In this document: positions 6,645 to 31,981 of the stretch, piece by piece
Layout of the letters: every line of letters starts with the position of its first letter
How positions within the stretch are numbered: position 1 is the stretch's first letter
NCBI GenBank assembly: GCA_947311115.1
Contig: CAMZKE010000101.1
Location: 1 to 34,271, forward strand
Origin: an uncultured Bacteroidales bacterium
GTDB lineage: Bacteria; Bacteroidota; Bacteroidia; Bacteroidales; JAFGXI01
Length of the DNA: 34,271 nt
Direction of reading: 5' to 3'
Notes under the pieces: model-generated
What the model was told of the DNA's origin: nothing
Database searches by the model: none
Seen by the model: only the letters and a program-made list of their open reading frames with translations
Position numbers and translations under genes: made by a program

Positions 6645-6673
6645 TGATAACCAAATAAAGAAAAATAAGAAAT

Positions 6674-9600: not shown

Positions 9601-12600
9601 TGATGCAACAAATTATAATTTAACGGATTGGCAGTGGAATTTTGGTGCTGATGCAACACCAGCAACATTTTCAGGACAAACACCTCCGCAAGTTGTTTAT
9701 TCAACAAAAGGAACTAAAACCGTAAATTTAGTAGTTACTAATGAAAAAGGCTGTAACAACACTTATACAAAAGATTTTCAGATGTATCAAGCCAACGCTT
9801 CGTTTACAAATATTATCGATGCAGGTTGTGCTCCTGCCGATGTTCAATTTACAAATACATCGGAAGATATTACCAGTTGGGAATGGGATTTTGGAGACCC
9901 TTTAAGCCCTTCTCAATCTGTAGAAAACCCTTCAAACATATACATATATCCCGGAGAATATGATGTTACTCTTATTACTACATCAATAGGTGGTTGTAAA
10001 GATACAATAGTAAAATCGGCAGATGTATTAGTCGATGGCTCGTATTACGATAGTTTATCTTATGTAATAGACCAACCTTGTTTATTCTCACCTGCAAATC
10101 CGGAAGTTACTTTTACCATATATGGTTTAACCGATACTAAATATGTAGTTTTCGATTTTGGTGATGGTTCACCAGCATATAATTATACTGTTCCGGATAT
10201 TCTAAATCCTCCTGCAACATTAGATATAACTCATACATACGATCATATTGGAACTTTTTTACCAAAATTAACTCTACAAGATGACCCAACTATTGCAGGT
10301 GCTTGTGGACAGTTTATTTATACCCCATCTGTTTCTCCAATCGTAATTAGTAAAAAACCTACTGCTCAATTTTCAGATAACTCATTATTAGATGAAGTTT
10401 GCTCTGGTTCGCAAGTAGATTTTACCGATGAAAGTATAAATAACGACCCTGCATTTCCAATTAATACTTGGGCTTGGGAATTTGGCGATACAGGAAGTTC
10501 TACCTCATCTAATCAAAATCCAAGTTTTACATATACCGATGCCGATATAGGAAATGTAGATGTAAAATTAACCGTAACTAATGCAATGGGCTGTTTTGAC
10601 GATTTTACAAAGAGTTTGACAATTGTTCCGGGATTAGAAGATTTAACAGTAGCAACTAACGATACAGTATGTGCAGGAATTACAGTAACTTTAGATGCTG
10701 AACAACCTACAGGTGGCGATGGAACTTATGTTTACTTATGGAAACAATCAATAGATGGTGGTTCATCGTGGCAAGCTGCCGATGGAATAAACGACCAAGA
10801 AGACTATATTACACCATCTGTTATTCCAACTTCGCATGTAACGATTTATTATAAGAGAAAAGTAAGTTCGGCAACTTGTAATTTATACACGCCCGAATTC
10901 TCGTTAACTATAGACCCAAGTGCAATAGGTGGTACAATATTGCCAAATCCTGTTACAGAATGCTTCGGCGATAATCATAATACACTAACAGTTAACGGTT
11001 CGTTATCTCAAGTTGTAGAATGGCAATCAGATGTAAATGCAGATTTTTCTACTTATACAACTATTCCAAATACTACAACAAGTTTAACTTATGATAACCT
11101 TACAGAAACTACTTACTATCGTGTTTTAGTGGTTTCGGGTGTTTGTCCAACGGTATTTTCCGATACTGCTATTGTAAACGTAAAACCTGAAATTACCGGT
11201 AACAGAATTTCGCCAAACGACACTTTAGTATGTGCAATGCAAGACCCTGGCGTTATTTCAGCAACAGCACCCCAAGGTGGAACAGGTAGTTTTACTTACC
11301 AATGGCAACAATCTGCCGATAATATTAATTTTGTTGATATTGTAGGTGAAACAAACGAAACATACAGCCCTGGTGGATTAATGGAAACACTCTATTATCG
11401 TAGAGCAGTTACTTCCGATGGTGCTTGTACTGTTTTTTCAGATACATCTGCCATTAATGTAATACCTCAACCCGATACTACTTTAAATGTTTCAGACCCA
11501 TTTGTTTGTGCAGAGGATTATTCATCTACACCAAATACAAATATTGTAATTTCTAATTCAGAAATTGATGTAGAATATCAAGCATTTTTAGTATCTGACG
11601 ATAGTCCGCAAAGTGGATTAATTGCCGGTACAGGTAGCGATATAGATATTTCAGTTGTAACACCAATTACTACAACCGATTATTATATTGTAGCCAGACC
11701 TACAACACCAAACGATGCCGGAGATTATTGTCCGGTAGTATTAGCCGACCATTCTACAATAACTATTGTTCCTATTCCTAGCGATGCTTTGGCTGTTTCT
11801 GACCCAACAATTTGCGAAGGTCAAGATGCAGTTATTACAGTTTCTGCAAGTGAAATTGATGTTAAATACGAATTAAAGTTAGCAGGAACTATTATTGCAA
11901 GTGCCCAAGGCGATGGAAACGATATTGATTTTGTGGTATCTCCCGGACCTTCAAACACAACAACTTACGAAGTTTGGGCAACATCATCATTAAATGCCGG
12001 GGCTTGTAGTCCGGTATTGATGGTTGACCCTGCTATTATTACTGTTATTCCGTTACCGGATAATAGTTTAACCGTATCTGACCCTCAAGTTTGTGGCGAA
12101 GATGTTAATTTTAATATTACTGTAAGCAATACTGCCGACACGGTTGATTATATGCTTATCCCACAAGGAGGAACAGTATTAAATACTTTAACAGGAACCG
12201 GTGCAGACTTAACTTTTACAGTTCCTACGCCACCAACCGCAAGTGTTTACGAAATTTGGGCAAAACCTCATAATGTATCTGATTATGGTGTTTGCGATAG
12301 CATAAAACTTTCTGATGTAGCAAATGTAACTTATGCTCCAATACCGGATATTACCCTTTCTGTTAGTAACGATATTATTTGTAATGGTGATAATGCAGAA
12401 ATAACAATATCAGTAAGCGAAAATAATGTTGAATATACATTAACGCCAAGTGGAAATACTGTATTAGGTAATGGTGCCGATGTTAGTTTCCCTTTGGTTT
12501 CGCCTGCAGTTACAACAACTTATACTATAACTGCAAAATCAACAATTATATCTTCATGTTCTGATGTTACTTTAACGAATAATTCAACGGTAACAGTAAT

Positions 12601-15600
12601 ACCTACACCTATAAATTTAACAATTACAACTAGTCCCGACCCTGCAAATATTTGTAGTGGCGACAATTTTACTATTACTGTAGAAAATACAGAAAATAAT
12701 GTTAAGTACATTCTTAAAGCAGGTTCAACTGCAACAGGAGATGAATTTATTGGTGATGGAACAAATCAAACTTTTACTGTTAATCCAATTTCCGACACAA
12801 CATATTCTGTTTGGGCTATTCCTACAGATTTAGATGCTGATGGAAACGAATGTTCTTCTGTGCAAATAGGAGCAGATATTCCTGTATATGTTGATGGACC
12901 TATAACAATAGATATTCAACCAATAGACGCACAGGTTTGCTCCGGTGCTACGGCTATTTTGGGTGTAACTGCAAGCAATGCCAGTGGCGACCCAATTACG
13001 TATCAATGGCAAGAGGATAGTGGTTCTGGTTTTGTAGATATGCCCGGCGAAACAAGTGCAACTGTATCTGTTGCATCTCCAAACTCTAGTTCGTTTAGAG
13101 TAATTGTAGGTTCTACTTATTGTAATTCTGTTACTTCAAATTCAGTTACAGTCAATTCTTCATCAACACCAGTTACCGACCAACTTACGCTAACAATAGA
13201 TGATGTTTGTTTAGGGAATGATGTGCAAGTTGCTTATCAATCAAATTTATCAACCAATGAGTATTATCGAATATATTTCAATATTACAGGAACAAATCCT
13301 ATTGCTGATACTTCGGTAGTAACATTATTAACTAATGGAAGTGGAACATTTTATATGCCTGCTGATAGTTTCACAAATGTTGGAGCAAATGCATTAATTA
13401 TAACTGCTATTGATTATGCTTATGGTCAAGGCTGCGAAAGTTCCGGCTTAGCAGTAACCGATTTATTTACAATAGAAGCATTACCTGATACAATAAATTT
13501 AGGCTTAAGTTCAAATAATATTTGTTTAGGTTCCGATGCAGAAATAAATCTTAGTGGAAATCTATCAGATGGAGTTTATAATATTGTTTACGACTTGTTA
13601 GGAGCAAATAACACTACAGCTTCTACAGGGCAAATTTCAATATCTTCCGGAGTAGGAACTTTTAATGTGCCAAATTCGGAACTTATAAACGCAGGAACAA
13701 CTCAATTTGTTTTAACTCAAATAAGCAATACTTGGGGATTAAATTGTCCTATTTCTGCTTTAACATATCAAACTCAGTTTGATGTAGAGCCTATGCCCGA
13801 TGTAACTAATTTGGCTGTAAGTATTCCAAATATTTGTACCGGAGATTCTGCTATTGCAAATATTACCGGTAATTTAATCGATGGCGATTATCAAATACTA
13901 TATAATTTATCAGGAGCTAATGCATCGTCAAATATAGTAAATGTTACTTTGGCTAACGGCGACGGAACAGCAAGTTTTGTAATTCCGGAAACACAAGTAC
14001 AGTATGCAGGTACAACTCAGTTCGAACTTACAGATATAAGTTTTGTAAACGGACAGGCTTGTGCAGTATCAGGTTTATCGGTTCAAACCGATTTCGATGT
14101 AGAGCAAACTCCATATATTAACGGAATGGCAATATACGCTCCAAATATTTGTGAAGAAGAAAATGCAATAGTTTACTTTACAAGTAATTTGCCCGATGGC
14201 AATTATTTGGTTCACTATAAAGTTGTAGGCGATGTGCCAACTTACGAACAAGATATTACGCTTAGTTTAAACTCAGGTAATGGTAATTCAAGTTTTACTA
14301 TCGATGCGGCTAATTTACCTGTTTCAGGTTTTAATACCATAAGTTTAACTTCAATAGAAAATACATTTGGCAACCAATGTCAAGTGCCATTAAGTGTAAA
14401 TTGTCCTTTAACAATAGAACCATTGCCTGATACAACAATGTTTGCAATGCAAGTAGATACCATTTGTCCAAATACCGATGCTCGTGTATATATTACAGGA
14501 AATATGATTGATGGACATTATTTATTATCTTACGATTTATCTGGAGCAAATTCGGCAACAGGAATTCCTGTTTATGTTCATTTTGTAAATGGCGATGGAA
14601 CAGCAGAGTTTAGTATACCGGGAACGGAATTAGCAAACGAAGGTTTAACTACTATCACACTTAAAACTGCAAATTTCTTTACCGGACAGCAATGCGGTAT
14701 CAATAATATTAATATAGATGCCAATTTTATGGTTGAAAGCATACCTGATATCAATACTTTAACTCTAAATTCAAATAATATTTGTGTTGGAAATTCTAAT
14801 ACTATAGATATTATAAGTACACTTGCCGATGGCGATTATGTTATTACCTATAATGTAGAAAATTCTAATTATCATACAGGTTTAATCGACACTATAAATA
14901 TCGTATCAGGAGCATCTAATTTTGTTGTTGATGCTATTAATTTAGATGTAGAAGGACCAACAACGGTAGTTTTAACCGATATTATTTCGGCAACAGGACA
15001 GCAATGCGATGCCCCAATAACTACTGCTATAAGTACAAGTTTCGATGTTGAACCGCTTCCTTTAATTCAAGGTGCTAATTTTATTGCCTTAGATGCTTGT
15101 CAAGGAGATGATGTTGAAGTGTACGGAACATCTAATTTAATTGATGGGGAGTATATGATTTACTATCATATCACAGGTGTAAACACATGGCCAAGCGATA
15201 GTGCTATTATTGATATTATTACCGGAGACGGTAATGTTCAATATACTATTCCGGCAGCAAGTGTGCCAAACTTTGGAGCATCTACAATTTGGATTGATGG
15301 CATACGTTTTAACTCAGGAGAGAGTTGTTATATTGCCGATAATTACCAATCTAACTTTACTATTGCAAAAGTTCCGGAAGTTACTAACCTTGTGGCTGTT
15401 GCCGATACCGTTTGTTTAGGCTCGTATATTACAGTAGATTTAATATCGAATTTAGACGATGGAACTTATATATTTACAACAGATATTACAGGAGTAAATC
15501 CTAATGCAAATGTGGAATTTGAAGCAGATATAGCAGCAGGGACAGGTCAATTTATAATTCCTGAAAATCTATTGTTAAATGTAGGCGATAATATTATTAC

Positions 15601-16909
15601 TATAAAGAATATTAAAAATAAAGATGGTGCGCAATGTGCTTCTAATGTGTATAATACATTTAGTAATTTTAAAATAGAAGATATTCCACACATTAATAAT
15701 TTCGATTTCGTTGTCAATAATGTTTGTTTAACATTCGATGCTCAAGTATCAATAGTTAGCGAATTAGAAGATGGAGATTATACACTAACTTACGACCTTA
15801 CAGGGTCAAATACAGCTACCGACCAAACTATAGATGTAAATATAGTTTCGGGTAATGCTACATTTAGTATCCCTACCTCGCTATTGCCAACTGTAGGAGC
15901 AACTGATTGTATTATTACAAATGTTAAAAATAAATTAGGTTTAACTTGTGATGTAGATATGTTCAAATCGGCAAGTTTTATTGTTATTCCTGATCCGGGA
16001 AGTACAAGTGTTAGTATTACAGCAGAAGATATTTGTTTAACAAACGATGCTTTGGTTGAAATAACAAGTATTTTCCCTGATGGCGATGTTGACATAACAT
16101 ACGATTTAACAGGAATTAACGATACTACTAACTTACATGCAACTGCTACATTTACAGGTGGTGCAGGAATCGGTGCATTTGTAATACCTGATACAGTTTT
16201 AAAAGTTGGTGGTGTTCAGAATATAGTAATAACAGGTATCGATTTTATAGGTGCAACTTGTTCTTCAACAGGATTAAATATAAGTACCGATTTTATAATT
16301 GAAGGAGATATTGAAATTACTCAACAACCAATTGCCGACACAAAATGTGAAGGGCAGCCTGTTAGTTTCGAAATTTCAGCTAAAAATAATGGCGGAGGAA
16401 ACTTTTATTACTTATGGTACGAGTTCGATGGTACAGATACAATAGCATTAAATAATCAAGGCGTATTCTCAGGAACTACAACATCTAAACTGTTAATTTC
16501 GGATAATACAGGTTTGGAAAACACCATGTATAAGTGTGTAATATACACCGACCATTGTCCTATAATAGTAAGTGATAGTGTTAAACTAGAAATTCTAACC
16601 GGTTCTGATTGTGGCGATGGTTTAGAAAATATTCCTGATGCAATAAGTCCAAACGGTGATGGCACTAATGATACTTGGGTTATTGATGGTATAGATAATT
16701 ATCCGGACAATCATATAAAAATATACTCTCGTTGGGGTAATCTTGTTTTTGAAACTACCGGTTACACCAATACCGGTAATAATTTTAACGGAACAGGAAA
16801 TACCGGAGCAGGTGCAGGTAAAGATGTTGCAGATGGTACTTATTTCTACTTTATAGATTTAGGTGATGGACAAAAAATAATTCAAGGATATATTGTGATA
16901 AACAGATAA
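6674..16909 (+). CDS. Giant PKD/Ig-repeat surface adhesin with type-B T9SS sorting domain
   Basis: At 3411 residues this is the dominant gene of the window. A signal peptide (MKIKIFILLLTISITSVFSQ) is followed by about 14 PKD-like domains (to about residue 1318) marked by W-x-F-G-D-G variants. About nine Ig-like or PKD-like domains follow (1320-2164), then ten copies of a separate unit of about 105 residues (2165-3213), one more Ig-like domain (to about 3310) and a type-B C-terminal domain (SPNGDGTNDTWVI, IKIYSRWGNLVFE, DGTYFYFIDLGDGQ, GYIVINR). Type-B tails are those of SprB-like gliding or adhesion proteins, exported by T9SS with SprF-type partners, as encoded two genes upstream. Nearly every domain holds one cysteine pair, pointing to disulfide-stabilised rods outside the cell. 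The ligand is unknown. It ends the module; no terminator is obvious after it. Confidence 0.93.
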   Translation: MKIKIFILLLTISITSVFSQSADFTTSLTNNENCGGTIVTFTINDTTGLTDYKWEFGNGEPDAIGTIDAGNDGTASTSYVSAGDFTVQLTVNGNISTVQQITIHALPTPDFQILNGTEEECINATADVEFQYIDNVPQYGANIVEWSWNFGDGTGAHTQTGGGDVTYTYSLYGDYTVLLDVTDANGCTSNTFKTNIVKLHSTPKADFSINKPTDCSLPITVDFTDNSVDEQSSIISYEWTFTDITSGVDIGSSTEQNPSFTFVNEGDYYATLKVTTNAGCTDEMTQTLNFKANTTSFTPNTEQHICAGHSVSFTNTSVDGNGTPTSFYWDFGDGETSTDENPTHTYNSAAGSPYTVTLQVTFSNGCIGTSVATDLVQITSIDGLAITVDKNQSCMNYTVNATAGTGAILYQWDFEYNDTTPSFDKSGISNQASYNYTDEGTYRIFLRATNTNGCFADTIYDSISVEYPKADFIVTNGQYGCMLVSADFDASSSSNQYPIGQNAITDYAWDFQNNNVIDQTGSSATVSHFYSQYGSFDVKLIITTETGCSDTIVKTNSVERGLPPVADFTFNQSDLCINTPVHFTNTSHPNILFPTAQIDSIIWNFGDGTIITGNPLIDPSLNTPTHIYTDDTQDDAIPYTVTLTVFNYGCNSATHTEQLDIDYPVARFTPSQVADCTGGGEIISLDAYNGDLLSEGVDEFRWDFGDGTFYPGPTANEYQTGNDPTTNIVYSSVGHYPITLYVKNSNSNCSDSETHEIIVEQGYVNFATTDTIICRDVDEVHFTNLSVSSEPGIEYTWDFGADANPATYTGSTPPAVTYSTNGEKTITLTSNDPNTSCGNVKTKTNYISVRGPQADFDWTSQNADDNIACLSPGEDISFTSTSSTHPNANTNISFEWVFGLGANPSTATRTNENPIDVSYSSVGKKTITLKVTDNLGCIDEYTHQDAITVPDVKSDFIIDANVYCTTHDITFTDNSDDATNYNLTDWQWNFGADATPATFSGQTPPQVVYSTKGTKTVNLVVTNEKGCNNTYTKDFQMYQANASFTNIIDAGCAPADVQFTNTSEDITSWEWDFGDPLSPSQSVENPSNIYIYPGEYDVTLITTSIGGCKDTIVKSADVLVDGSYYDSLSYVIDQPCLFSPANPEVTFTIYGLTDTKYVVFDFGDGSPAYNYTVPDILNPPATLDITHTYDHIGTFLPKLTLQDDPTIAGACGQFIYTPSVSPIVISKKPTAQFSDNSLLDEVCSGSQVDFTDESINNDPAFPINTWAWEFGDTGSSTSSNQNPSFTYTDADIGNVDVKLTVTNAMGCFDDFTKSLTIVPGLEDLTVATNDTVCAGITVTLDAEQPTGGDGTYVYLWKQSIDGGSSWQAADGINDQEDYITPSVIPTSHVTIYYKRKVSSATCNLYTPEFSLTIDPSAIGGTILPNPVTECFGDNHNTLTVNGSLSQVVEWQSDVNADFSTYTTIPNTTTSLTYDNLTETTYYRVLVVSGVCPTVFSDTAIVNVKPEITGNRISPNDTLVCAMQDPGVISATAPQGGTGSFTYQWQQSADNINFVDIVGETNETYSPGGLMETLYYRRAVTSDGACTVFSDTSAINVIPQPDTTLNVSDPFVCAEDYSSTPNTNIVISNSEIDVEYQAFLVSDDSPQSGLIAGTGSDIDISVVTPITTTDYYIVARPTTPNDAGDYCPVVLADHSTITIVPIPSDALAVSDPTICEGQDAVITVSASEIDVKYELKLAGTIIASAQGDGNDIDFVVSPGPSNTTTYEVWATSSLNAGACSPVLMVDPAIITVIPLPDNSLTVSDPQVCGEDVNFNITVSNTADTVDYMLIPQGGTVLNTLTGTGADLTFTVPTPPTASVYEIWAKPHNVSDYGVCDSIKLSDVANVTYAPIPDITLSVSNDIICNGDNAEITISVSENNVEYTLTPSGNTVLGNGADVSFPLVSPAVTTTYTITAKSTIISSCSDVTLTNNSTVTVIPTPINLTITTSPDPANICSGDNFTITVENTENNVKYILKAGSTATGDEFIGDGTNQTFTVNPISDTTYSVWAIPTDLDADGNECSSVQIGADIPVYVDGPITIDIQPIDAQVCSGATAILGVTASNASGDPITYQWQEDSGSGFVDMPGETSATVSVASPNSSSFRVIVGSTYCNSVTSNSVTVNSSSTPVTDQLTLTIDDVCLGNDVQVAYQSNLSTNEYYRIYFNITGTNPIADTSVVTLLTNGSGTFYMPADSFTNVGANALIITAIDYAYGQGCESSGLAVTDLFTIEALPDTINLGLSSNNICLGSDAEINLSGNLSDGVYNIVYDLLGANNTTASTGQISISSGVGTFNVPNSELINAGTTQFVLTQISNTWGLNCPISALTYQTQFDVEPMPDVTNLAVSIPNICTGDSAIANITGNLIDGDYQILYNLSGANASSNIVNVTLANGDGTASFVIPETQVQYAGTTQFELTDISFVNGQACAVSGLSVQTDFDVEQTPYINGMAIYAPNICEEENAIVYFTSNLPDGNYLVHYKVVGDVPTYEQDITLSLNSGNGNSSFTIDAANLPVSGFNTISLTSIENTFGNQCQVPLSVNCPLTIEPLPDTTMFAMQVDTICPNTDARVYITGNMIDGHYLLSYDLSGANSATGIPVYVHFVNGDGTAEFSIPGTELANEGLTTITLKTANFFTGQQCGINNINIDANFMVESIPDINTLTLNSNNICVGNSNTIDIISTLADGDYVITYNVENSNYHTGLIDTINIVSGASNFVVDAINLDVEGPTTVVLTDIISATGQQCDAPITTAISTSFDVEPLPLIQGANFIALDACQGDDVEVYGTSNLIDGEYMIYYHITGVNTWPSDSAIIDIITGDGNVQYTIPAASVPNFGASTIWIDGIRFNSGESCYIADNYQSNFTIAKVPEVTNLVAVADTVCLGSYITVDLISNLDDGTYIFTTDITGVNPNANVEFEADIAAGTGQFIIPENLLLNVGDNIITIKNIKNKDGAQCASNVYNTFSNFKIEDIPHINNFDFVVNNVCLTFDAQVSIVSELEDGDYTLTYDLTGSNTATDQTIDVNIVSGNATFSIPTSLLPTVGATDCIITNVKNKLGLTCDVDMFKSASFIVIPDPGSTSVSITAEDICLTNDALVEITSIFPDGDVDITYDLTGINDTTNLHATATFTGGAGIGAFVIPDTVLKVGGVQNIVITGIDFIGATCSSTGLNISTDFIIEGDIEITQQPIADTKCEGQPVSFEISAKNNGGGNFYYLWYEFDGTDTIALNNQGVFSGTTTSKLLISDNTGLENTMYKCVIYTDHCPIIVSDSVKLEILTGSDCGDGLENIPDAISPNGDGTNDTWVIDGIDNYPDNHIKIYSRWGNLVFETTGYTNTGNNFNGTGNTGAGAGKDVADGTYFYFIDLGDGQKIIQGYIVINR
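13168..16309 (+). repeat. Ten tandem adhesin units of about 105 codons
   Basis: Within the giant adhesin, ten consecutive units start at about 13168, 13481, 13793, 14108, 14420, 14741, 15056, 15372, 15684 and 15989. Each begins with a PxxxxL-like strand and a first cysteine (for example NNICLG, PNICTG, DTVCLG). Each then has an x-DG-x-Y turn followed by Y-x-x-x-G-x-N, and ends with a second cysteine after an aromatic/Gly-Q stretch (GLNCP, GQACA, GQQCG, GAQCA). Both cysteines are present in all ten. The copies have diverged strongly in DNA sequence, so this is an old expansion rather than a recent slippage array. Confidence 0.85.
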
Positions 16910-16957: not shown

Positions 16958-16965
16958 TAGCTTTG
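16958..16965 (+). promoter_or_regulatory. Promoter box of the seven-gene envelope operon
   Basis: TAGCTTTG matches the -7 consensus TAnnTTTG exactly and lies 22 bp before the ATG of the DUF481 gene, in the only sizeable gap (78 bp) ahead of seven closely packed genes. A TTG at 16927-16929 is 28 bp upstream, longer than the usual spacing of about 19-21, so the -33 element is weak or absent. Confidence 0.55.
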
Positions 16966-16987: not shown

Positions 16988-17998
16988 ATGAAAAAAATAA
17001 TTTTTAGTTTCTTAATTATGTATATGGGTTTAAATATAGTAAAAGCCCAAGATACTTTAGTATCAACAAATAACACTTTAATATTTGGCGAAATTAAAGA
17101 TATGGATAAAGGGGTAATTACAATTGAAACCGATTTTAGTGATAGCGACTTTAAAATTTCGTGGTTAAAAGTAAAAGAGATTAAATCGCAAAGAAGTTAT
17201 AGGTTTATAACAAGTGATGGATCTCATTATTTTGGTACCATTACTACGCAAGGCGATAAATTAGTTATAAATGATGAAAAAGAAGGAAATATTGAAATAA
17301 CTAAAGAGCAATTAGTTTATATTAAACAAGTTGATAAAGGAAAATTTCTTGATGTATTAAACTTGTCAATGGATATTGGTTATTCTTTTACAAATGCTAA
17401 AAATCTTGAACAAATAAACGGAGAAATTAATGCCGATTACTATACAACATATTGGGGAGTAAAAGGATATTTTAACACAGTACGAAGCAATCAAACTGAT
17501 GCATCGGCAATTATTAGAAATAATGGAGGTTTTGGTGTAAAAGGATTTGCTAAATATGGTATTTACGCATCGTTAGATGCCGATTTTTTTAGCAATACAG
17601 AACAAAAAATGGAGTTAAGAAGTAATTACAGTGCTTCGGTAGGTAAATATTTTATACGAACAAACCGAATATATTTTAATTCATCTGTCGGTGTTGCATA
17701 TTTAATTGAAAACTACAGTGATACATTGCCCGATAATAAAAACTACGAGGGTAAAATTAGTATTGAATACAATATGTTTGATATTGGAGATTTAAACTTG
17801 TTTTCTAAAGTTGATTTATTTCCAAGTATAACAGAAAAAGGTAGATTAAGAACACTTTTTACATTTAATGTAAAATATGATTTGCCACGAGATTTTTATA
17901 TTAAAGCAGGGCTAAATTATAACTACGATACCAAACCTGCAGCAGGTATAGACCCTAACGATTATGTTTACACATTTGGTATTGGATGGGAATTATAA
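16988..17998 (+). CDS. DUF481-family outer-membrane protein
   Basis: This 336-residue protein has a signal peptide ending near VKAQ. An N-terminal beta-rich region of about 110 residues contains two similar copies of a short motif (FGEIKDMDKGVITIE and YFGTITTQGDKLVI). The rest is a beta-barrel region ending in aromatic-rich strands (VYTFGIGWEL). The C-terminal two thirds resemble DUF481 (YdiY-like) barrels, outer-membrane proteins without an established substrate. It is the first gene of the seven-gene run, with 28 bp to the next, behind a consensus -7 box. It would supply an outer-membrane component; pore or receptor function cannot be told from sequence. Confidence 0.72.
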   Translation: MKKIIFSFLIMYMGLNIVKAQDTLVSTNNTLIFGEIKDMDKGVITIETDFSDSDFKISWLKVKEIKSQRSYRFITSDGSHYFGTITTQGDKLVINDEKEGNIEITKEQLVYIKQVDKGKFLDVLNLSMDIGYSFTNAKNLEQINGEINADYYTTYWGVKGYFNTVRSNQTDASAIIRNNGGFGVKGFAKYGIYASLDADFFSNTEQKMELRSNYSASVGKYFIRTNRIYFNSSVGVAYLIENYSDTLPDNKNYEGKISIEYNMFDIGDLNLFSKVDLFPSITEKGRLRTLFTFNVKYDLPRDFYIKAGLNYNYDTKPAAGIDPNDYVYTFGIGWEL

Positions 17999-18026
17999 CT
18001 TATAATAATTAATACAATAACTAAAA

Positions 18027-18821
18027 ATGAAGAAATTAGCAGTCTTGTCAATAATTTTGACAATAATTATTAGCAGTGTTTTTGCACAAACAACTATTAA
18101 ACAAATTAAAGACAGAGGGTATCTTTTAGTAGGAACCTCTGGAAATCAACTACCATATACCTATAAACAAGAAGATGGTACTTTTGTTGGAGTTGATATA
18201 GAACTTGCTAAAGAATTAGCAAAAGAGATGGGTGTTGAAGCAAAATTTGTACAAATAGAAATACCATATTTAATTGATTCTTTAAAAGCCGGTAATATAG
18301 ATGTAATACTTTCAGGTTTTTCAATAACAAGCGAAAGAAATTTAGAAGTAATGTTTACAGATTATTACTTTGAAACAGGCAAAGCAATTTTTTCAAATAA
18401 TTCTCATTTACTGTCAGGGAAAACAAAAAATATAAATAAAAGCGATGTAAAATTATTAGCTTTAAAAAACTCATCAAGTATAGATTTTATTAAAAAACAT
18501 TATCCTAATGCAACAATTGTTGAAGGTACAGGTAAAGATGATTGTGTAGAAAAATTAAAGACAAATCAAGCCGATGCTTTTATTGGAGATATAGAAATCT
18601 GCGATTATTATGCGTATGATGGAAGATTTAAAAACTTTGACAGAAAAATACTTGAAGAAACACAGAGTAGCGATCACGAATTTATTGCTATTGCCGTTTC
18701 ACCAAACGATATATTATTTTTCAACTTTGTAAATAACTTTATTAAAGAACAAAAAAGTAAAAATGGTGATAATGATAATGAAATAGAGCAGAATTGGGAA
18801 AGATATTACGATTATGAATAA
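18027..18821 (+). CDS. Family-3 periplasmic solute-binding protein, orphan
   Basis: This 264-residue exported protein (signal peptide ending SSVFAQ, no lipobox) has the SBP_bac_3 fold of polar amino-acid binding proteins: a GYLLVGTSGNQLPYTY first strand, a GTFVGVDIELAKELAKEMG segment and an LKAGNIDVILSGFSITSERN segment that usually contacts the ligand. No ABC permease or ATPase gene is nearby. Its last 8 bases overlap the start of a peptidoglycan-hydrolase-type gene, so translation is probably coupled. MltF combines exactly this type of binding domain with a lytic transglycosylase in one chain, so a sensing or targeting role in wall hydrolysis is as likely as nutrient uptake. Ligand unknown. 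Confidence 0.85.
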   Translation: MKKLAVLSIILTIIISSVFAQTTIKQIKDRGYLLVGTSGNQLPYTYKQEDGTFVGVDIELAKELAKEMGVEAKFVQIEIPYLIDSLKAGNIDVILSGFSITSERNLEVMFTDYYFETGKAIFSNNSHLLSGKTKNINKSDVKLLALKNSSSIDFIKKHYPNATIVEGTGKDDCVEKLKTNQADAFIGDIEICDYYAYDGRFKNFDRKILEETQSSDHEFIAIAVSPNDILFFNFVNNFIKEQKSKNGDNDNEIEQNWERYYDYE

Positions 18822-19668
18822 AAAATATATACTTTTCCCTTTCTTAGTTTTGATACTTCTTAGTTTTACTCAATCGCAAGTAAAAAAAATATCTGTAAAT
18901 AATTACAAGGAACTTATTAGTAAATTAGATGAGTATAAACTCGATTTAAATCAAGTAAGAAAAACAAAACAGCTAGCTAATTTAAGGATTGTAAATATTC
19001 ATAAAAGCATAAAAGATTTATCAGTAAAAGATAAAAAGAGAGCATTTATTTCTGCTATTTTGCTTGCTGCAGTATCTGTAAATAATGATATTTTAGAAAA
19101 CAGAAAAAAGATAAAAGCAATCATTAAAATTGACAAAGAAAATCGCACCGAAGAACAAAATAAGTATATTGAGCGTATGAAAGCCGAAACAAAAATATAC
19201 AAAGCAACCAAAGAAGATGCAATGTGGTATTACGATGTTATTCCTCCATCATTAGTTATTTCTCAAGCCATTTTAGAATCTGCTTGGGGAACATCACGCT
19301 TTGCAATAGAAGGCAATAGTTTGTTTGGCGAACATATGCCAAAATCGGCAAAAGGTAAATATATTCAAGCAAAAGGAGCCGATATTAGACTTAGAGCTTT
19401 CCCGTCTATAGAAGAAGCAGTAAGGGGATATGTGTACAATCTTAACAGAAACAATGCCTATAAAGGTTTGCGAGACCAAAGATTAATTATGCGAGAAGAC
19501 GATAAACCTAGCGACAGTAAAAAATTAGCTAACACCCAAGACCATTATTCTGAAATAGGACACGAATATACAAAAAGAATTATAACAGTCATGGAGCAAA
19601 ATAACTTGAAAGATTTCGATGATTGTAATTTTATAAATGATGAACAAATATCAATAATAATTAATTAA
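18814..19668 (+). CDS. Bax-like glucosaminidase-domain protein
   Basis: This 284-residue protein has a signal peptide (to about FTQSQ), a lysine-rich alpha-helical linker (about 25-135) and a glucosaminidase/Bax-type lysozyme-fold domain (about 140-270). The core motif IPPSLVISQAILESAWGTS carries the presumed catalytic Glu155. It is followed by NSLFGEH and the FPSIEEAVRGYVYNLNRN segment typical of Bax-like proteins. Such enzymes cleave beta-N-acetylglucosaminyl bonds, usually in peptidoglycan, in the periplasm. The start overlaps the preceding solute-binding-protein gene by 8 bases; the next gene starts 12 bp downstream. Activity is inferred from the motif; Bax itself is poorly characterised. 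Confidence 0.85.
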   Translation: MNKKYILFPFLVLILLSFTQSQVKKISVNNYKELISKLDEYKLDLNQVRKTKQLANLRIVNIHKSIKDLSVKDKKRAFISAILLAAVSVNNDILENRKKIKAIIKIDKENRTEEQNKYIERMKAETKIYKATKEDAMWYYDVIPPSLVISQAILESAWGTSRFAIEGNSLFGEHMPKSAKGKYIQAKGADIRLRAFPSIEEAVRGYVYNLNRNNAYKGLRDQRLIMREDDKPSDSKKLANTQDHYSEIGHEYTKRIITVMEQNNLKDFDDCNFINDEQISIIIN

Positions 19669-19680
19669 AATTTAATAACA

Positions 19681-20784
19681 ATGAATAGAATTAAAACAAT
19701 GATTGTTGCAATAGCTATTATGCTATTTGCAAGTAGTACAACAGATGCTTGTACAGGAATAATGATTAAAACTAAGGATGGAAAAACCGTTCATGGTAGA
19801 ACATTAGAATTTGGAATAGAAGTTTCCACTTCTATAATTGCAGTGCCAAAAGGCTACCAATTTATTGGTAAAACCGATAATGGTGCAGGTATGAAATACG
19901 AAACAAAGTATGCTATGACAGGTTTAATAACCTTTTCGGAAATAAATATTGCCGATGGAATGAATACAGCAGGTTTATCTTGTGGAGCATTTTATTTTCC
20001 AACAATGGCAAAATATGCAGAATTAACTAAGGAAAATCAAAGTAAAGCATTGTCTCCAACCGATTTTAACAACTGGGTATTAGCACAGTTTGCTACAGTT
20101 GACGAAGTAAGAAAAGCTATTGAAAACGAAGAAGTTGTAATTGTACCTACTGTTCTTGATGGTTGGGGAGCCGCAGCACCACCATTTCATTATGTGGTTT
20201 ACGATAAAAGTGGAAAAAGTATTGTAATTGAGCCTATTGATGGAAAATTAGTAGTTTATGATAATCCTATTGGAGTAATGACAAACTCTCCAAGTTTCGA
20301 TTGGCACATGACAAATTTAAGAAATTACACAAATTTAAAAGCAGAGAATGTAAACTCAATGACAATTAATGGTGTTACATTTAAACAATTAGGTCAAGGT
20401 TCTGGAATGAACGGAATACCTGGTGATTTTACCCCACCATCTCGTTTTGTAAGAGCTACTGCTTTTTCGGTAACTGCCATACCTACAAATACAACTTACG
20501 AGGCTATTGGCGATGTATTTCATATTCTTAATAATTTCGATATCCCTAAAGGCTTTTCCAGAGAAGTTGTTGATGGTACTATTTATGCCGATTATACACA
20601 ACTTACTTGCGCCAGAGATCCTCAAGAATTAAAATATTACTACAAAACATATAAAAATCAAGACATTAAAATGTTTGATTTAAAAGAGTTTGATGCCAAT
20701 TCAAAAGATATTTTAATACTTAATACTGATTCTGATAAACAAGAGGTTGAAAATGTAAATTCTAAATTGAAACCTATTAAATAA
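19681..20784 (+). CDS. Secreted linear-amide C-N hydrolase (choloylglycine hydrolase/penicillin V acylase family)
   Basis: The 367-residue protein is an Ntn hydrolase. After a signal peptide ending TTDA comes Cys24 (ACTGIMIKTKDG), the expected nucleophile, which signal peptidase I cleavage would expose directly as the N-terminal residue without a propeptide. Other family marks are GRTLEFG (Arg40, Glu43), the TNSPSFDWHMTNLRNY segment with its conserved Asn, and the GIPGDFTPPSRFVRA segment with its conserved Arg. The family hydrolyses bile-salt amides, penicillin V or N-acyl homoserine lactones, and its substrate cannot be read from sequence. It is the fourth gene of the run and its stop codon shares one base with the next start (TAATG), implying translational coupling. 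Confidence 0.9.
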   Translation: MNRIKTMIVAIAIMLFASSTTDACTGIMIKTKDGKTVHGRTLEFGIEVSTSIIAVPKGYQFIGKTDNGAGMKYETKYAMTGLITFSEINIADGMNTAGLSCGAFYFPTMAKYAELTKENQSKALSPTDFNNWVLAQFATVDEVRKAIENEEVVIVPTVLDGWGAAAPPFHYVVYDKSGKSIVIEPIDGKLVVYDNPIGVMTNSPSFDWHMTNLRNYTNLKAENVNSMTINGVTFKQLGQGSGMNGIPGDFTPPSRFVRATAFSVTAIPTNTTYEAIGDVFHILNNFDIPKGFSREVVDGTIYADYTQLTCARDPQELKYYYKTYKNQDIKMFDLKEFDANSKDILILNTDSDKQEVENVNSKLKPIK

Positions 20785-21479
20785 TGAATGTTAAGCATAA
20801 AACATATTGGCTTACATTAATATTATTTGTAATAATAAATCCACTGTATTCTCAAGAGAATACAGTGGATAATTGGGATAATGAGTTGTGGATGGGCACA
20901 CGCTTTTCTTGGGGACAAAAAAAGCTTAAATATACCGGCGAATTTCAATCTCGAGTTAACCAAAACTATACCCAACTCGAAAACTGGTATTTAGAGGGCT
21001 CTATTCACTTTTTAGCCAATAAATACATTGAAATAGTTGCTGATGCAAGAAACTCAGTTTCTCCAAGTGGTAATTCATTTAGACCCGGAATAGCTGCTAT
21101 CGGAAAAATAGGCTTTAATAAATTCTTTATTATCAATCAACTAAAGTTGCAATCGGATAATACATTTACTCCAAAAACCAGCTATGCTCTACGAGAAGTT
21201 ATGTATTTAAACTATGCTATAAATACTAAATGGACACCATATATTGGAGGTGGTGTATTTTTTAGAGATAGCGATAATTTTAAGGGATTACAGGTTATTA
21301 GAGCAGGTGTAGGTGTTTATTATAATTACAATCCGCTTCATAGTTTAAGTTTTAACTACTTTGTGGGACAAAGAAATTTAGGCTCTTATAAAACTTTATC
21401 AGGAATATTATTAGTGCAATTAACCATTAAATTTAGTAATGATTATATCTATATGCCGGCTAGGTATATAAATTTTTAA
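20784..21479 (+). CDS. DUF2490-family outer-membrane protein
   Basis: This 231-residue protein with a signal peptide (cleavage near PLYSQ) and amphipathic beta strands throughout matches the DUF2490 pattern: an NWDNELWMGTRFSW start, FQSRVNQNYTQLENWYL, then alternating strands ending FSLTI-type with aromatic residues. DUF2490 proteins are predicted outer-membrane barrels of unknown function. The start overlaps the preceding stop by one base. Codons 19-29, across the signal-peptide cleavage site, are built from a perfect 15-bp inverted repeat that could fold the mRNA close to the start. It stands between an amide hydrolase and an Omp85-like barrel, so it probably belongs to the same envelope function. 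Confidence 0.7.
   Translation: MNVKHKTYWLTLILFVIINPLYSQENTVDNWDNELWMGTRFSWGQKKLKYTGEFQSRVNQNYTQLENWYLEGSIHFLANKYIEIVADARNSVSPSGNSFRPGIAAIGKIGFNKFFIINQLKLQSDNTFTPKTSYALREVMYLNYAINTKWTPYIGGGVFFRDSDNFKGLQVIRAGVGVYYNYNPLHSLSFNYFVGQRNLGSYKTLSGILLVQLTIKFSNDYIYMPARYINF
20839..20870. repeat. Perfect 15-bp inverted repeat inside a coding sequence
   Basis: The arms ATCCACTGTATTCTC (20839-20853) and GAGAATACAGTGGAT (20856-20870) are exact reverse complements separated by two bases (AA). They fall 55 bases after the start codon of the DUF2490 gene. The sequence is not especially AT-rich for this genome, which makes chance less likely. It could act as an mRNA hairpin tuning translation of the coupled genes, or as a protein-binding dyad. 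Confidence 0.9.
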
Positions 21480-21493
21480 ATTAAACTGTTATT

Positions 21494-22741
21494 ATGAAAA
21501 TAACTTTCACTAGTTTACTATTATTATTAACTATAACAGCTGTTTTTGCTCAATCAAAAGATAGTATAAATACTAATAATACACCACAAAAAGGGGACAT
21601 ATTTTTTTCTCCATTGCCTGTAATTGCAGTTAATCCTACTTTTGGAGTTATGTATGGATTAGCGGCATCAACAAGTATGTTTATGGGAGACCCAAGCAAT
21701 ACAAGAATGTCAACATCATTGGGAACATTTACCTACTCTACCAAAAAGCAATTAATGTTTACTTTTAAAACTAATGTCTATTTATCGCAAGATAATTGGA
21801 TTTTATTGGGAGATTGGAGGGTGTTTAATACTTCACAACCTACTTATGGTCTGGGTACAGGACCTCAATCAACAAAAAATGCAGGAACAGGTTATGAATA
21901 TCAAGATGGCATGTTTTCCGAACCAATTCCTGATGCACAATTAATGAAATTCAAATATATTCGTTTTCACGAAACAGCATTAAAAAAAATGCGTGAGAAT
22001 TTATATGTAGGTATTGGCTATCACCTGGATTATCATTACGATATATCTGAAGATTTATTACAGACAGATACCACAGGAGGACAAACACCCACCTACACAA
22101 GCCATTATTTATACAGTACAGAACAAGGTTTTAACCCCGAAAAATATACTTTATCAGGCCTTTCTTTTAACGCCATGTGGGATAGCCGCGATAATGCTGC
22201 TACGCCTTATAAAGGAAGATACGCTTTAATTACTTACCGCTACAATCCTACATTTTTAGGAAGTGACCAAAACTCATCTTCACTTTGGTTAGAATATCGT
22301 GATTATTTCAATCTATCAAAAAAAACACAGCCCAGTCATTTGCTTGCATTTTGGATTTATGGTAGTTTTCAAACATCGGGTAATTTACCTTACCTCGATT
22401 TACCGGCCTTAGGTTGGGATCAATTTGGCCGTTCGGGTAGAGCATATACTCAAGGGAGATTTAGAGGCGAAAATTTAATGTATTCTGAACTTGAATATAG
22501 AGTTCATATTTTAGGAACGAAGAAAAATCCTGATTTTATGGGAGCCGTTGCTTTTGTAAATGTAACAACGGCAAGTAATAAAGCGACAGATATAGGATTG
22601 TTTCAATACATAGATCCCGGATATGGCGTAGGCTTACGTTTTATGATGAACAAAACATCAAGAACAAATATAACTCTAGATTATGCTTGGGGAGCCTATG
22701 GTGCTCAAGGATTATTTCTAAATGTAAACGAAACTTTTTAA
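21494..22741 (+). CDS. Omp85-type (BamA/TamA-like) outer-membrane barrel without POTRA domains
   Basis: This 415-residue protein has a signal peptide ending VFAQ and then goes straight into barrel strands; there is room for only a short plug or linker, not POTRA domains. Family features are a strand with WDSRDNAATPYKGRYALI, the loop GQ/GRFRGENLMYSELEYR that corresponds to the conserved R-G-x-R-type loop of Omp85 barrels, and a terminal strand ending in Phe. Short barrels of this kind are widespread in Bacteroidota and have no proven substrate. It starts 14 bp after the DUF2490 gene and is followed after 26 bp by the amidohydrolase lipoprotein. A shorter relative lies on the other side of that gene at 24897. 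Confidence 0.85.
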   Translation: MKITFTSLLLLLTITAVFAQSKDSINTNNTPQKGDIFFSPLPVIAVNPTFGVMYGLAASTSMFMGDPSNTRMSTSLGTFTYSTKKQLMFTFKTNVYLSQDNWILLGDWRVFNTSQPTYGLGTGPQSTKNAGTGYEYQDGMFSEPIPDAQLMKFKYIRFHETALKKMRENLYVGIGYHLDYHYDISEDLLQTDTTGGQTPTYTSHYLYSTEQGFNPEKYTLSGLSFNAMWDSRDNAATPYKGRYALITYRYNPTFLGSDQNSSSLWLEYRDYFNLSKKTQPSHLLAFWIYGSFQTSGNLPYLDLPALGWDQFGRSGRAYTQGRFRGENLMYSELEYRVHILGTKKNPDFMGAVAFVNVTTASNKATDIGLFQYIDPGYGVGLRFMMNKTSRTNITLDYAWGAYGAQGLFLNVNETF

Positions 22742-22767
22742 TTGATTATTTAAAATCTAAATTTAAT

Positions 22768-24765
22768 ATGAAAACAAAGATTATAATTTTAGCAGTATTA
22801 GCAACATTATTATTTAGTTGCAGTAATACTACCGAAAGTGCTGATGATAATTCACAAACTGATAGTACAAAAACTATTTATTATGGTGGCGATATCATTA
22901 CTATGGAAGGCAATAAGCCCGAATATGTAGAGGCCGTAGTTCGCGATAAAGACAAAATTGTATTTGTTGGCTCTAAAGCCGATGCTGAAAAGCAATATGG
23001 CAATGCACAGCAATACGATTTAAAAGGCAAAACCTTGATGCCCGGTTTTATTGAGCCTCACTTACATCCACTTATTGCAGCGGTTGTTTTATCAGGTGAT
23101 ATTATTGCACCACACGATTGGAATGTGCCCGAAGGTGTTAAAAAAGGAGTTGGTACTCACGAGGAATTTATCAATCGCTTAAAAGAATCAGTAGCAAAGA
23201 ACGGAAAAGAAGATGAAATCTTGTTTATTTGGGGTTATCATCAATTATGGCACGGAGAGCTAAACAAGCAAATATTGAATGAAATAGCACCTAATGTGCC
23301 GGTTGTTGTTTTACATCGTTCGTTTCACGAAGCATTTTTTAATGACAAAGCCATTGATTTGGTAGGATTGAAAGAAGCTGATTATAAAGGAAATCCACAA
23401 GTAGAATGGGATAAAGGTCATTTCTTCGAAGGCGGATGGATGGCTATGGCTCCTAAACTAAGTAAATATATGCTAAACCCGGAGAAGTATGCAAAAGGTT
23501 TAGAGGATATGACCTTACTTATGGAGAAAAATGGTATCACAACTATTAACGAGCCGGGTTTCCCAAACGTAAATTTTGATATGGAATACAATCTGTTAAA
23601 AGCAGAAATGGATAAAAATCCCCCTTACGAAGTTTATAATATTTTAAGTGGTACGCAACTTACCAATATGAAAGGTAGTATTGAAAAAGCTGCTGAGTTT
23701 ATGGAATCTACTCCTGCAAAATATAATACTGAAAATATCAAAATTTTGCCAAAACAGGTTAAACTATTTGCTGATGGTGCAATTTATTCTTTGGCAATGC
23801 AAATGAAAGAGGGTTATACCGATGGTTTTAAAGGTAAATGGATGACCCCATTGGCTTTATTCGAAGAACAAATGAATTATTTTTGGGATAAAGGATACAA
23901 AATTCATATTCACGCCAATGGTGATTTAGGCATTCAACGTTGCATTGATATTACACGTTCTATGATGAAACGCAACCCAAGAAAAGACCATCAATTAACA
24001 CTGCATCATTTAGGATATTTCACTGCAGACCAGGTAGATGAGATGAAAGAATTGGGAATAGAAGCATCGGTAAATCCCTATTATCTATGGGCACTAGCCG
24101 ATAAATATTCTGAATACGGATTAGGTGAAAAAAGAGCCCAAAACCTTGTTGATATGAAGTTGTTGGTTGACAGAGGAATACCAATGTCATTCCACTCAGA
24201 TTTTGCAATGGCACCGGCCGAGCCACTTACTTTGGCCTGGACTGCAATAAACCGAGTTACAAGCGAAAAAACAGCAATAACACAAGACCAAAGGATTGAT
24301 GTGTTTACAGCAATGAAAGCAATTACTATTACTGCTGCTCATACCCTTAAATTAGAAAAAGAAATAGGCTCAATAAAAGTAGGTAAAACAGCAAACTTTA
24401 CAATCCTTGCCGAAAATCCATTCAAGGTAGATAAAATGCATATTAAAGACATATTTGTTGTTGGTTCAATTTATCATGGCAGAGTTCATTTAAATAAAGA
24501 AAAAGCAGATAGACAGTTAGCTGGTGGATGGAGCAAAACAGAAATTACTCCCGAAGTAGAAAAAGCGGTTGATTTTGTTTTACAACAAATGAATACTTCA
24601 GCTAAATTGGATAAAATTGTTTTTGCAAAAATGCAAATTGTAAAAGGTAGAAACTACGATATCGACTTTCAGTTAGACAATGGAGAAGTTTGGAATACCA
24701 TTGTTTATATGGATTTAGATGGAAAGTGTAAAATGACTAAAGTTGCCAGTTTAAAAGGAATTTAA
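22768..24765 (+). CDS. Amidohydrolase lipoprotein (YtcJ-like) with C-terminal cystatin-like domain
   Basis: The ATG at 22768 is chosen because it gives a lipoprotein signal with lipobox LFSC (Cys19), and the longer frame from 22687 overlaps the previous gene. Residues of about 40-590 are an amidohydrolase of the YtcJ / Amidohydro_3 type with metal-site motifs: PHLHP (His98, His100), KLFADG (Lys332), HIHANGD (His380, His382), LHHLG (His413/414) and FHSDF (Asp478). After it, about 597-665 resemble a cystatin fold: a helix (VEKAVDFVLQQMN), a QIVKG loop (623-627, the Q-x-V-x-G pattern), RNYDIDFQL and TIVYMDLDG strands. Such enzymes hydrolyse amide or related bonds; the substrate is unknown. It is the last gene of the seven-gene run. 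Confidence 0.87.
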   Translation: MKTKIIILAVLATLLFSCSNTTESADDNSQTDSTKTIYYGGDIITMEGNKPEYVEAVVRDKDKIVFVGSKADAEKQYGNAQQYDLKGKTLMPGFIEPHLHPLIAAVVLSGDIIAPHDWNVPEGVKKGVGTHEEFINRLKESVAKNGKEDEILFIWGYHQLWHGELNKQILNEIAPNVPVVVLHRSFHEAFFNDKAIDLVGLKEADYKGNPQVEWDKGHFFEGGWMAMAPKLSKYMLNPEKYAKGLEDMTLLMEKNGITTINEPGFPNVNFDMEYNLLKAEMDKNPPYEVYNILSGTQLTNMKGSIEKAAEFMESTPAKYNTENIKILPKQVKLFADGAIYSLAMQMKEGYTDGFKGKWMTPLALFEEQMNYFWDKGYKIHIHANGDLGIQRCIDITRSMMKRNPRKDHQLTLHHLGYFTADQVDEMKELGIEASVNPYYLWALADKYSEYGLGEKRAQNLVDMKLLVDRGIPMSFHSDFAMAPAEPLTLAWTAINRVTSEKTAITQDQRIDVFTAMKAITITAAHTLKLEKEIGSIKVGKTANFTILAENPFKVDKMHIKDIFVVGSIYHGRVHLNKEKADRQLAGGWSKTEITPEVEKAVDFVLQQMNTSAKLDKIVFAKMQIVKGRNYDIDFQLDNGEVWNTIVYMDLDGKCKMTKVASLKGI

Positions 24766-24896: not shown

Positions 24897-25991
24897 ATGA
24901 AAATTCGAATTTCTATATTATTAGTATTTATAAACTTAATCTCTTTCTCGCAGAATACTGATAGTATAGCGAGTCCTAAAAAAGAAAAGAAAGTAAATTT
25001 TGCAATTATCCCTATCGTATCTTATAATAATTCGTTTGGAGCACAATTAGGGCTAATGTCAAATATGTATTATAATGTTCGTAAAAAAGATACTATTTCG
25101 CCCGCATCTGTAGTAGGTATTATGGGAACTTATTTTTTGAATTCAACTTATTTTGCCGGAATATTTGCTAAAAATTATTTTAACGAAGATAAATGGAGAA
25201 CAAATATTATGTTTTTCAATGGTAATATCGAATTTCAGACGTATATTAATTATCCTGAAATTATTTTACCCTTTGTTAATGAGGATGGTGTTTTTTTAGA
25301 TTATAACACAAAGTTTAATTTTCTTTTGCTAGAAGCTCAGAGAAAAGTTTTTCAGAACTTCTATTTTGGTTTACGAGTATCGTATTCTTATGTAACTACA
25401 GAATTTGAAACAAAACTTATTCCTATTCCAAAACAAAAAGAAGATTTATTTGGAGTTGGTGGCATAATTAATTATGATAACCGAGATAATGTATTGAATC
25501 CCAAAAAAGGAATGAATGCTAAAATTTCAACATTTTCTTTTTTAGAGGCTTTAGGCTCAACAAGTCAATATCATAATATAGAAATTCAAGCAAATAAATA
25601 CTTTCCTTTAACAAAAAAATCGCTGATAATGGCACGTTTCTATAGTGTTATATCTGTAGGCGATGTACCTTTTTCAGGACAAAACATTGTAGGTAGAGAC
25701 GATTTAAGAGGCTATAGTAATGGTAAATATAGAGCTAATCAAGTTTATAATATTCAAACCGAATATCGATGGAATTTTTACAAAAAATGGGGATTGGTAG
25801 CCTTTGGTGGTTTGGCTGTAGCTACTGATAACCTAAAAGCTGATAATTATAGCGGTGTATTACCCGCAGTGGGTACCGGCATTAGATTTATGGCTATCCC
25901 TTCTCGAGGGATAAATGTTGGAATGGATGTTGCTTTAGGTAAAGAAGACTGGGGTTTGTATTTTAGAATTGGCGAAGTCTTTAGTCGATAA
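24897..25991 (+). CDS. Omp85-type outer-membrane barrel, second copy
   Basis: This 364-residue protein has a signal peptide ending SFSQ, then a barrel related to that at 21494. It starts with an AIIPIVSYNNSFGAQLG strand, has YDNRDNVLNPKKGMNAKI (the strand-loop equivalent to WDSRDN in the first copy), GRDDLRGYSNGKYR (the Omp85 arginine loop) and a last strand ending in FSR. No POTRA domain is present. It is separated from the seven-gene run by a 131-bp gap with palindromes, and is followed at 26027 by a membrane-tethered regulator with its own promoter box. Role unknown; Omp85 relatives insert or translocate proteins or lipids at the outer membrane. Confidence 0.82.
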   Translation: MKIRISILLVFINLISFSQNTDSIASPKKEKKVNFAIIPIVSYNNSFGAQLGLMSNMYYNVRKKDTISPASVVGIMGTYFLNSTYFAGIFAKNYFNEDKWRTNIMFFNGNIEFQTYINYPEIILPFVNEDGVFLDYNTKFNFLLLEAQRKVFQNFYFGLRVSYSYVTTEFETKLIPIPKQKEDLFGVGGIINYDNRDNVLNPKKGMNAKISTFSFLEALGSTSQYHNIEIQANKYFPLTKKSLIMARFYSVISVGDVPFSGQNIVGRDDLRGYSNGKYRANQVYNIQTEYRWNFYKKWGLVAFGGLAVATDNLKADNYSGVLPAVGTGIRFMAIPSRGINVGMDVALGKEDWGLYFRIGEVFSR

Positions 25992-31300: not shown

Positions 31301-31627
31301 TTAATTATTGCTATCGCTTATTGCTTTTTCTCTTACTTGTGTTAATTGCTGCGGTTCTAATTTATCAATATCTAAAATTATCATTTTAGAATATTCCAAT
31401 AAATTTACTTGTTTTCTGCCACCAACAAATCTACCAGATGGAGTAAAAGCCGGCAAGGTTCTTTTCTTATTGGAATATTCTTTATCCTTGCCTTGCTTTA
31501 ATAAATCTCTGAGTATAGCAATCTGATTTTGATACTTGCTACTGCGGATTATCTCCGCAATAGCATCGTATTTCATTACTGCAACAACTTTGTTGAAGCC
31601 TGTAAATATGCTTATTTTTGTTTGCAT
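31301..31627 (-). pseudogene. BT4734/VirE-type protein, N-terminal fragment
   Basis: These 108 residues correspond to the BT4734-like N-terminal domain found in large primase-related proteins of Bacteroidota mobile islands: KISIFTGF start, KKRTLPAFTPSGRFVGGRK, LLEYSKMIILDIDKL and LTQVREKAISDS. Intact relatives run on with a phe/ser-rich SPSG motif and several hundred more residues (VirE or DUF3987 domains). Here the frame stops after ISDSNN and the sequence beyond does not resume the family, so the gene looks cut by a deletion near 31300. It lies 11 bp downstream of the HTH gene on the same strand. Confidence 0.7.
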
Positions 31628-31638
31628 TGCGGGTAGTT

Positions 31639-31917: not shown

Positions 31918-31981
31918 ATTTTAAATTTTTAGTTTGCAAAAAATATCTTGCGACAAGTTTAATCGAAAAAACAACTCGATT

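Follow-up and report, generated by a model that had tools for sequence, protein, structure and literature searches.

A recurrent pairing of CBAH-family and YtcJ-type amidases, seen from a run of exported genes in an uncultured Bacteroidales bacterium

Does a run of seven genes for exported proteins, all pointing in one direction and hardly separated from one another, work as one envelope system, or is it built around something smaller? The question is raised by positions 16988-24765 of a 34,271-nucleotide stretch from an uncultured Bacteroidales bacterium (contig CAMZKE010000101.1 of assembly GCA_947311115.1; the whole stretch is called the window below), which a sequence-only reading had proposed to be a single seven-gene system degrading or detoxifying an amide-containing compound. 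We have found that the seven genes are not kept together in relatives, while two of them, encoding an N-terminal nucleophile (Ntn) amidase of the CBAH family (gene 4) and a YtcJ-type Amidohydro_3 metalloamidase (gene 7, whose family is called AMH here), recur side by side in several phyla. With a probability of roughly one half, we regard this core as a pair of exported enzymes for the deconjugation of acyl amides, embedded in a run of envelope genes particular to this lineage. What appears to be new here is the recurrent pairing; each enzyme family by itself was already known. The pairing is not described in the open-licence literature searched, nor in the available passages of a 2026 preprint on metal-dependent bile salt hydrolases (metalloBSHs; PMC13081902), where the passage on genomic context deals with a second homologue and a type II secretion system.

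The seven-gene run and its conserved core

Pfam and NCBIfam profile scans of the window proteins gave the assignments listed here, which agree with the family names given to the seven products earlier, that of DUF2490 at a score just under the Pfam cut-off.

16988 to 17998, plus strand: gene 1, DUF481 outer-membrane beta-barrel with a signal peptide (Pfam DUF481 7.3e-12)
18027 to 18821, plus strand: gene 2, orphan SBP_bac_3 amino-acid-type binding protein (Pfam 2.2e-26)
18814 to 19668, plus strand: gene 3, Bax-like Glucosaminidase (GH73-type), an exported hydrolase (Pfam 4.3e-19; NCBIfam Bax 1.7e-25, below cut-off)
19681 to 20784, plus strand: gene 4, CBAH/penicillin V acylase (PVA)-family Ntn amidase, core gene (Pfam CBAH 1.8e-78, from residue 24)
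20784 to 21479, plus strand: gene 5, DUF2490 outer-membrane barrel (Pfam 1e-6; 29.1 bits against a cut-off of 29.8 bits)
21494 to 22741, plus strand: gene 6, Omp85-superfamily barrel (Pfam 7.9e-9; NCBIfam Omp85_fam 1.8e-23, below cut-off)
22768 to 24765, plus strand: gene 7, lipoprotein YtcJ-type Amidohydro_3 metalloamidase, core gene (Pfam 9.6e-60; Pfam Cystatin 4.9e-7 at the C-terminus)

The open reading frame (ORF) calls bore out the run, and the distances between its genes (28, -8, 12, -1, 14 and 26 bp) are, as had been reported, gaps of at most 28 bp and two overlaps. The start taken for gene 7 is the ATG at 22768, the lipoprotein start; the mechanical ORF opens at TTG 22687. Read by eye from the sequence, a hydrophobic signal sequence opens each of the seven products and the gene 7 product carries the lipobox LLFSC, which confirms that every product has a signal peptide or a lipobox. 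No POTRA domain was matched in gene 6 by the profile scans.

To follow these families through other genomes, all seven proteins were searched against 80 loci that encode CBAH relatives, taken with flanking sequence of up to 10 kb. A single seven-gene system was not borne out, as no locus held more than three of the seven families, and the expectation that at least four would stand together in relatives failed at every locus found. The three-family loci combined Omp85, AMH and CBAH (L012, L015 and L017), AMH, CBAH and DUF2490 (L013), or DUF481, AMH and CBAH (L068 and L078). In the closest relatives, with the order Omp85-AMH-CBAH in L012 and L017 and AMH-CBAH-DUF2490 in L013, the proteins were 71-86% identical to those of the window; the gene 6 copies, directly before AMH in L012 and L017, had 78-86% identity, and the gene 5 relative of L013, directly after CBAH, had 71% identity and scored 39.9 bits for DUF2490. 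Homologues of the solute-binding protein (SBP, gene 2) and of Bax (gene 3) were never near CBAH among the 80 loci. In the genome of L013, the closest searchable relative, they lie on contigs other than that of CBAH, and paralogues of each are also encoded at other sites in the window genome, without adjoining each other. CBAH itself was absent from the window's genus-mate and from four other family members sampled. The lack of any locus with more than three families, the placement of SBP and Bax elsewhere and the absence of CBAH within the family together argue, at the level of gene content, that the seven-gene block is a lineage-specific assembly around a smaller core. Bax is most readily seen as having joined it locally.

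That smaller core is the CBAH-AMH pair. AMH was found on the strand of CBAH in 20 of the 80 loci, 19 times within 434 bp and once at 3.3 kb, and the paired hosts, as labelled in their records, belong to Bacteroidota, Campylobacterota and Pseudomonadota and include one cyanobacterium; one host is labelled Ignavibacteriales. The order varies, being AMH-CBAH, CBAH-AMH, or with barrels in between, as in the window. The conserved neighbourhood that had been anticipated for the full set is in this sense present for the pair, more widely than could be seen from one sequence, and is missing for the seven genes. The AMH subfamily (E 1e-60 or better) was present in 21 of the 50 CBAH-bearing genomes searched and in 3 of 395 Bacteroidota genomes, the window's own included; for the Bacteroidota-clade loci (L012-L021) the figure was 5 of 10 against 2 of 394 in the phylum sample (Fisher p 6e-8, with samples from different collections).

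Mapped onto the CBAH tree, the paired state has to change 9 times, and branches with good support impose at least 8 of these changes. Each change could be either a gain or a loss, and both the CBAH and the AMH tree contain flagged long branches, so that the exact number of pairings is unsure. The two trees disagree: the CBAH of L015 is 81% identical to that of the window and falls in its clade, while its AMH is only 46% identical and groups with those of L036, L055 and L160, and in Sulfurimonas the AMHs share 65-69% identity with the window's and the CBAHs only 45-46%. Since the order changes and the trees are discordant, the two genes have probably come together anew on several occasions. A second AMH-CBAH pair was seen in the genome of L057 (L175, 5304-8638), where the preceding cluster-4 barrel gene is shortened and may be decaying. 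Several broken or fragmented AMH copies, close together and in a repeated order, lie on the flavobacterial contig of L125 (516-3415 and 13110-15899).

Outer-membrane barrels recur beside the pair. Omp85 was found near the pair or CBAH in L012, L015, L017 and L019, and DUF2490 in L013; other neighbours of CBAH were an OMP_b-brl protein (L016) and an OmpA-like protein (L021 and L070). A further unnamed, barrel-like family, cluster 4, lies near CBAH in Sulfurimonas and Helicobacteraceae (Campylobacterota) and in L040; it had no Pfam or NCBIfam match and is called a barrel from the look of its sequence alone. DUF481 precedes cluster 4 in L068 and L078; the copy in L078, a Sulfurimonas locus, was confirmed by Pfam and lies 19 bp upstream of the clustered barrel, AMH and CBAH genes. 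In addition, CBAH is immediately preceded by a coenzyme A (CoA)-transferase III gene in L030 and L032, and in L171 of the Desulfobulbaceae a CoA-transferase-like ORF, with an opening nearly identical to that of the CoA-transferase III gene, is directly downstream of AMH. Histidine kinases with SBP_bac_3 domains stand directly upstream of both AMH copies in one Desulfobulbaceae genome (L171 and L172). These links to acid activation and amino-acid sensing are leads drawn from few cases. Neighbour cluster 2 (10 loci) was discarded as an artefact of long antisense ORFs overlapping CBAH.

Catalytic residues of the two amidases

The signal peptide of gene 4 is predicted to end at Ala23 and to leave Cys24 as the N-terminal nucleophile. 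As Ala23 stands directly before Cys24, export itself would free the nucleophile, and this junction is kept in 77 of the 86 aligned CBAH sequences. C24, R40, E43, Y105, N202 and R255 align with C2, R18, D21, N82, N175 and R228 of CpBSH (the roles of the catalytic residues of CBAH are given in PMC8066178), and the positions of N202 and R255 are invariant in all 86 rows. Like the Ntn family of bile salt hydrolases (BSHs) and PVAs (CBAH, PF02275), gene 4 thus has the same fold family, the N-terminal Cys and the equivalents of Arg18, Asn175 and Arg228. It differs in being exported, in having Glu43 (invariant in 86 of 86 sequences) for Asp21, and in having a metalloamidase beside it, as a quarter of the CBAH loci do. 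Where BSHs have the oxyanion-hole Asn at 81/82, gene 4 has Tyr105, and 85 of the 86 aligned sequences have one of Y, F and W there. An Asn at this position marks the BSHs proper and an aromatic residue the PVAs, and judged by its aligned residues gene 4 is PVA-like rather than a BSH proper, although the Trp-Trp pair found in most Gram-negative PVAs (PMC8066178) is not present.

In gene 7 the six metal ligands H98, H100, K332, H382, H414 and D478 were invariant in all of the 24 sequences of the active-site alignment, by which gene 7 carries a complete predicted binuclear amidohydrolase site. The catalytic sites of both enzymes, then, look intact. An AlphaFold2 model of gene 7 (predicted local distance difference test score, pLDDT, 84) gave its best structure matches to 3igh (Z 31.6) and 3icj (Z 30.6), with 3mtw also listed.

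The available passages of the preprint (PMC13081902) describe BwBSH1, an Amidohydro_3/YtcJ-type enzyme that hydrolyses bile salts conjugated to taurine and, to a lesser extent, other N-acyl taurines, and name 3ICJ and 3MTW as its closest structures. As far as these passages go, gene 7 is of the same type, is likewise exported, has the same six types of metal ligand (H, H, K, H, H, D), a Ser-x-His motif and an Asn two residues after the third metal His, and shares 3icj and 3mtw as structural neighbours. The same passages give Ser194, Gln381, Asn443 and His544 as predicted sulfonate-binding residues of BwBSH1 and His196 as catalytic; by spacing from the metal ligands only, all but His544 could be placed in gene 7, where S185, H187 and N384 agree with Ser194, His196 and Asn443, and the Gln381 position is Tyr340. 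Unlike BwBSH1, which has 945 residues and a BwBSH C-terminal domain, gene 7 is a lipoprotein of 665 residues with a cystatin-like C-terminus, and the hosts differ. The additional BwBSH-type C-terminal domain, counted among the features of metalloBSHs, is absent from gene 7. We treat the metalloBSH family as the nearest functional analogue, apparently alike in chemistry, and do not file gene 7 as a member. The Cystatin match itself covers residues 588-644 (window 24529-24700), with a QIVKG motif, fused to the amidohydrolase lipoprotein; the cystatin-like tail is also present in L012, L013 and L017. The AMHs of L036, L055, L153, L158 and L160 have in its place a Cys-rich tail of the GYxWC...CxRPWE-like kind, for which Pfam gave no match.

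The binding protein, the borders of the run and the rest of the window

The earlier statement that this is not a standard uptake locus held: the ABC permease domain PF00528 had no match in the 99% complete window genome, while 14 of 14 control genomes matched, and neither SusC/SusD nor a permease had a Pfam match in the window genes scanned (the gene at 6674-16909 was left out). Like SusCD-type polysaccharide utilization loci or ABC uptake loci, the run has exported hydrolases, outer-membrane barrels and a binding protein; unlike them, it is without SusC/SusD, permease and ATPase. Among solved chains, gene 2 came closest to AncCDT-1 and to amino-acid-binding SBPs, and its R104 and D188 align with the conserved R and D. 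In amino-acid binders of the HisJ/LAO type, this Arg and Asp take part in ligand binding. A role as cyclohexadienyl dehydratase, raised by the AncCDT-1 match, was provisionally put aside, as the aligned position still carries the binding-type Asp. Genes 2 and 3, adjacent with an 8-bp overlap, recall a split MltF, in which an SBP_bac_3 domain is joined to a lytic domain, but they are separate genes and have Glucosaminidase in place of SLT; this gene pair was not found together elsewhere in our searches.

Two features bear on where the run begins and ends:

16958 to 16965, plus strand: possible Bacteroidetes-type -7 promoter element TAGCTTTG, 30 bp before gene 1 (pattern match only)
24897 to 25991, plus strand: second Omp85-superfamily barrel, exported, 131 bp downstream of gene 7 (Pfam 1.6e-12)

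The -7 pattern was not enriched in the window (70 found, 62 expected), and the promoter scans gave no excess over chance. No terminator-like site was found between the seven genes or in the 131-bp gap after gene 7; the unit may therefore not end at 24765, and the second Omp85 possibly belongs to it. As exported products are encoded on both sides of the run, being exported is not special to these seven genes and the borders of the run are not sharp. A perfect 14-bp inverted repeat at 20839-20870, inside the start of gene 5, might have been a hairpin that terminates or regulates transcription, an idea that was dropped; the repeat is not conserved in L013.

Elsewhere in the window, 3759-16909 encodes PorP/SprF and OmpA (Pfam) and a PKD-rich giant protein of 3411 residues, resembling a type IX secretion adhesin locus. 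Near the window end, 31301-33981 on the minus strand encodes an integrase (Phage_integrase, Arm-DNA-bind_5) and a BT4734-like fragment, possibly a mobile element.

A possible pathway and its alternatives

If the pair acts in deconjugation, signal peptidase would remove residues 1-23 of gene 4 and expose Cys24 as the Ntn nucleophile. Gene 4 would then cleave an N-acyl amide to acid and amine, and gene 7 would hydrolyse a related or follow-on amide by a metal-activated water, both of them in the periplasm or at the surface. Whereas gene order, family membership, intact active-site residues, the pairing across phyla and the recurring barrels are observed, we infer that the two enzymes serve one pathway, with N-acyl amino acids or taurine-like conjugates as candidate substrates. 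The Omp85, DUF2490 and DUF481 barrels might give a hydrophobic substrate or product passage through the outer membrane, and the orphan amino-acid-type SBP could bind an amino acid once it is released, serving as its store or its sensor, because the genome is without an ABC permease. The general idea of amide degradation, put forward for all seven genes, fits the conserved core, as a pathway outside the cytoplasm, and is not supported for the seven as one system. It is also possible, though on balance doubtful, that the pair represents a previously undescribed cross-phylum deconjugation system, in which Ntn and YtcJ-type amidases act jointly, outside the cytoplasm, on one family of acyl-amide conjugates (e.g. 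N-acyl taurines or N-acyl amino acids), with barrels for passage and, in some lineages, CoA-transferases that make use of the acid.

Several observations weigh against a deconjugation pair. No AMH was nearby in 60 of the 80 CBAH loci; 29 of the 80 have less than 2.5 kb on one side, so that absence is often unproven, and of the 51 with at least 2.5 kb on both sides only 12 were paired. Two barrel genes separate the pair in the window itself, no conserved link ties genes 2 and 3 to the pair, and a shared operon need not mean a shared pathway for the two enzymes.

The same amidases could be read as a defence, destroying N-acyl homoserine lactones or penicillin-like amides rather than feeding the cell. 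The PVA-type aromatic residue of gene 4, a report that a BSH of this superfamily degrades penicillin (available passages of PMC9207391) and a patchy distribution, as expected of a protective trait that spreads horizontally, speak for this; the absence of resistance or signalling genes beside the pair, the CoA-transferase III next to CBAH in L030 and L032, which points to use of the acid, and the missing Trp-Trp pair make it unlikely. A little less probable again is envelope remodelling, in which the enzymes would process the cell's own amide lipids or wall fragments and Bax would cleave peptidoglycan. A Brucella mutant in a CBAH-family gene (CGH) had altered outer-membrane proteins and polymyxin resistance (PMC3234258), and Bax and four outer-membrane-type genes lie in or next to the run. 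Against this, the pair is also found in Campylobacterota, Pseudomonadota and a cyanobacterium, whose envelopes are different, the genus-mate and other sampled family members lack CBAH, and Bax is never near the pair elsewhere.

A single pathway of seven (or eight) genes special to this lineage is favoured by the tight spacing and overlaps, which suggest co-transcription, and by the SBP_bac_3 domains that also adjoin AMH in Desulfobulbaceae. We hold it to be improbable, given that relatives bring at most three of the families together, that SBP and Bax lie elsewhere in the L013 genome, and that L012, L013 and L017 keep the pair without genes 1-3, within contig limits. Least probable of all, though with an integrase gene at 32761-33981 and a rare and patchy occurrence of the genes in its favour, is that the island holds exported genes that are neighbours by chance, with CBAH and AMH brought together by mobile gene cassettes. 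The two families meet in several phyla with differing partners, orders and discordant trees, a pattern that a single travelling cassette would not produce.

We thus return to an exported deconjugation pair as the preferred reading of genes 4 and 7. According to the available passages of the preprint, which reported the metal-dependent class in 2026 (PMC13081902), both families cleave the same bile-salt bond by unrelated chemistry. A recurrent pair of the two therefore provides a place, and in genes 4 and 7 a concrete pair of proteins, for asking which substrate, possibly one from outside the gut, the two families act on in nature.

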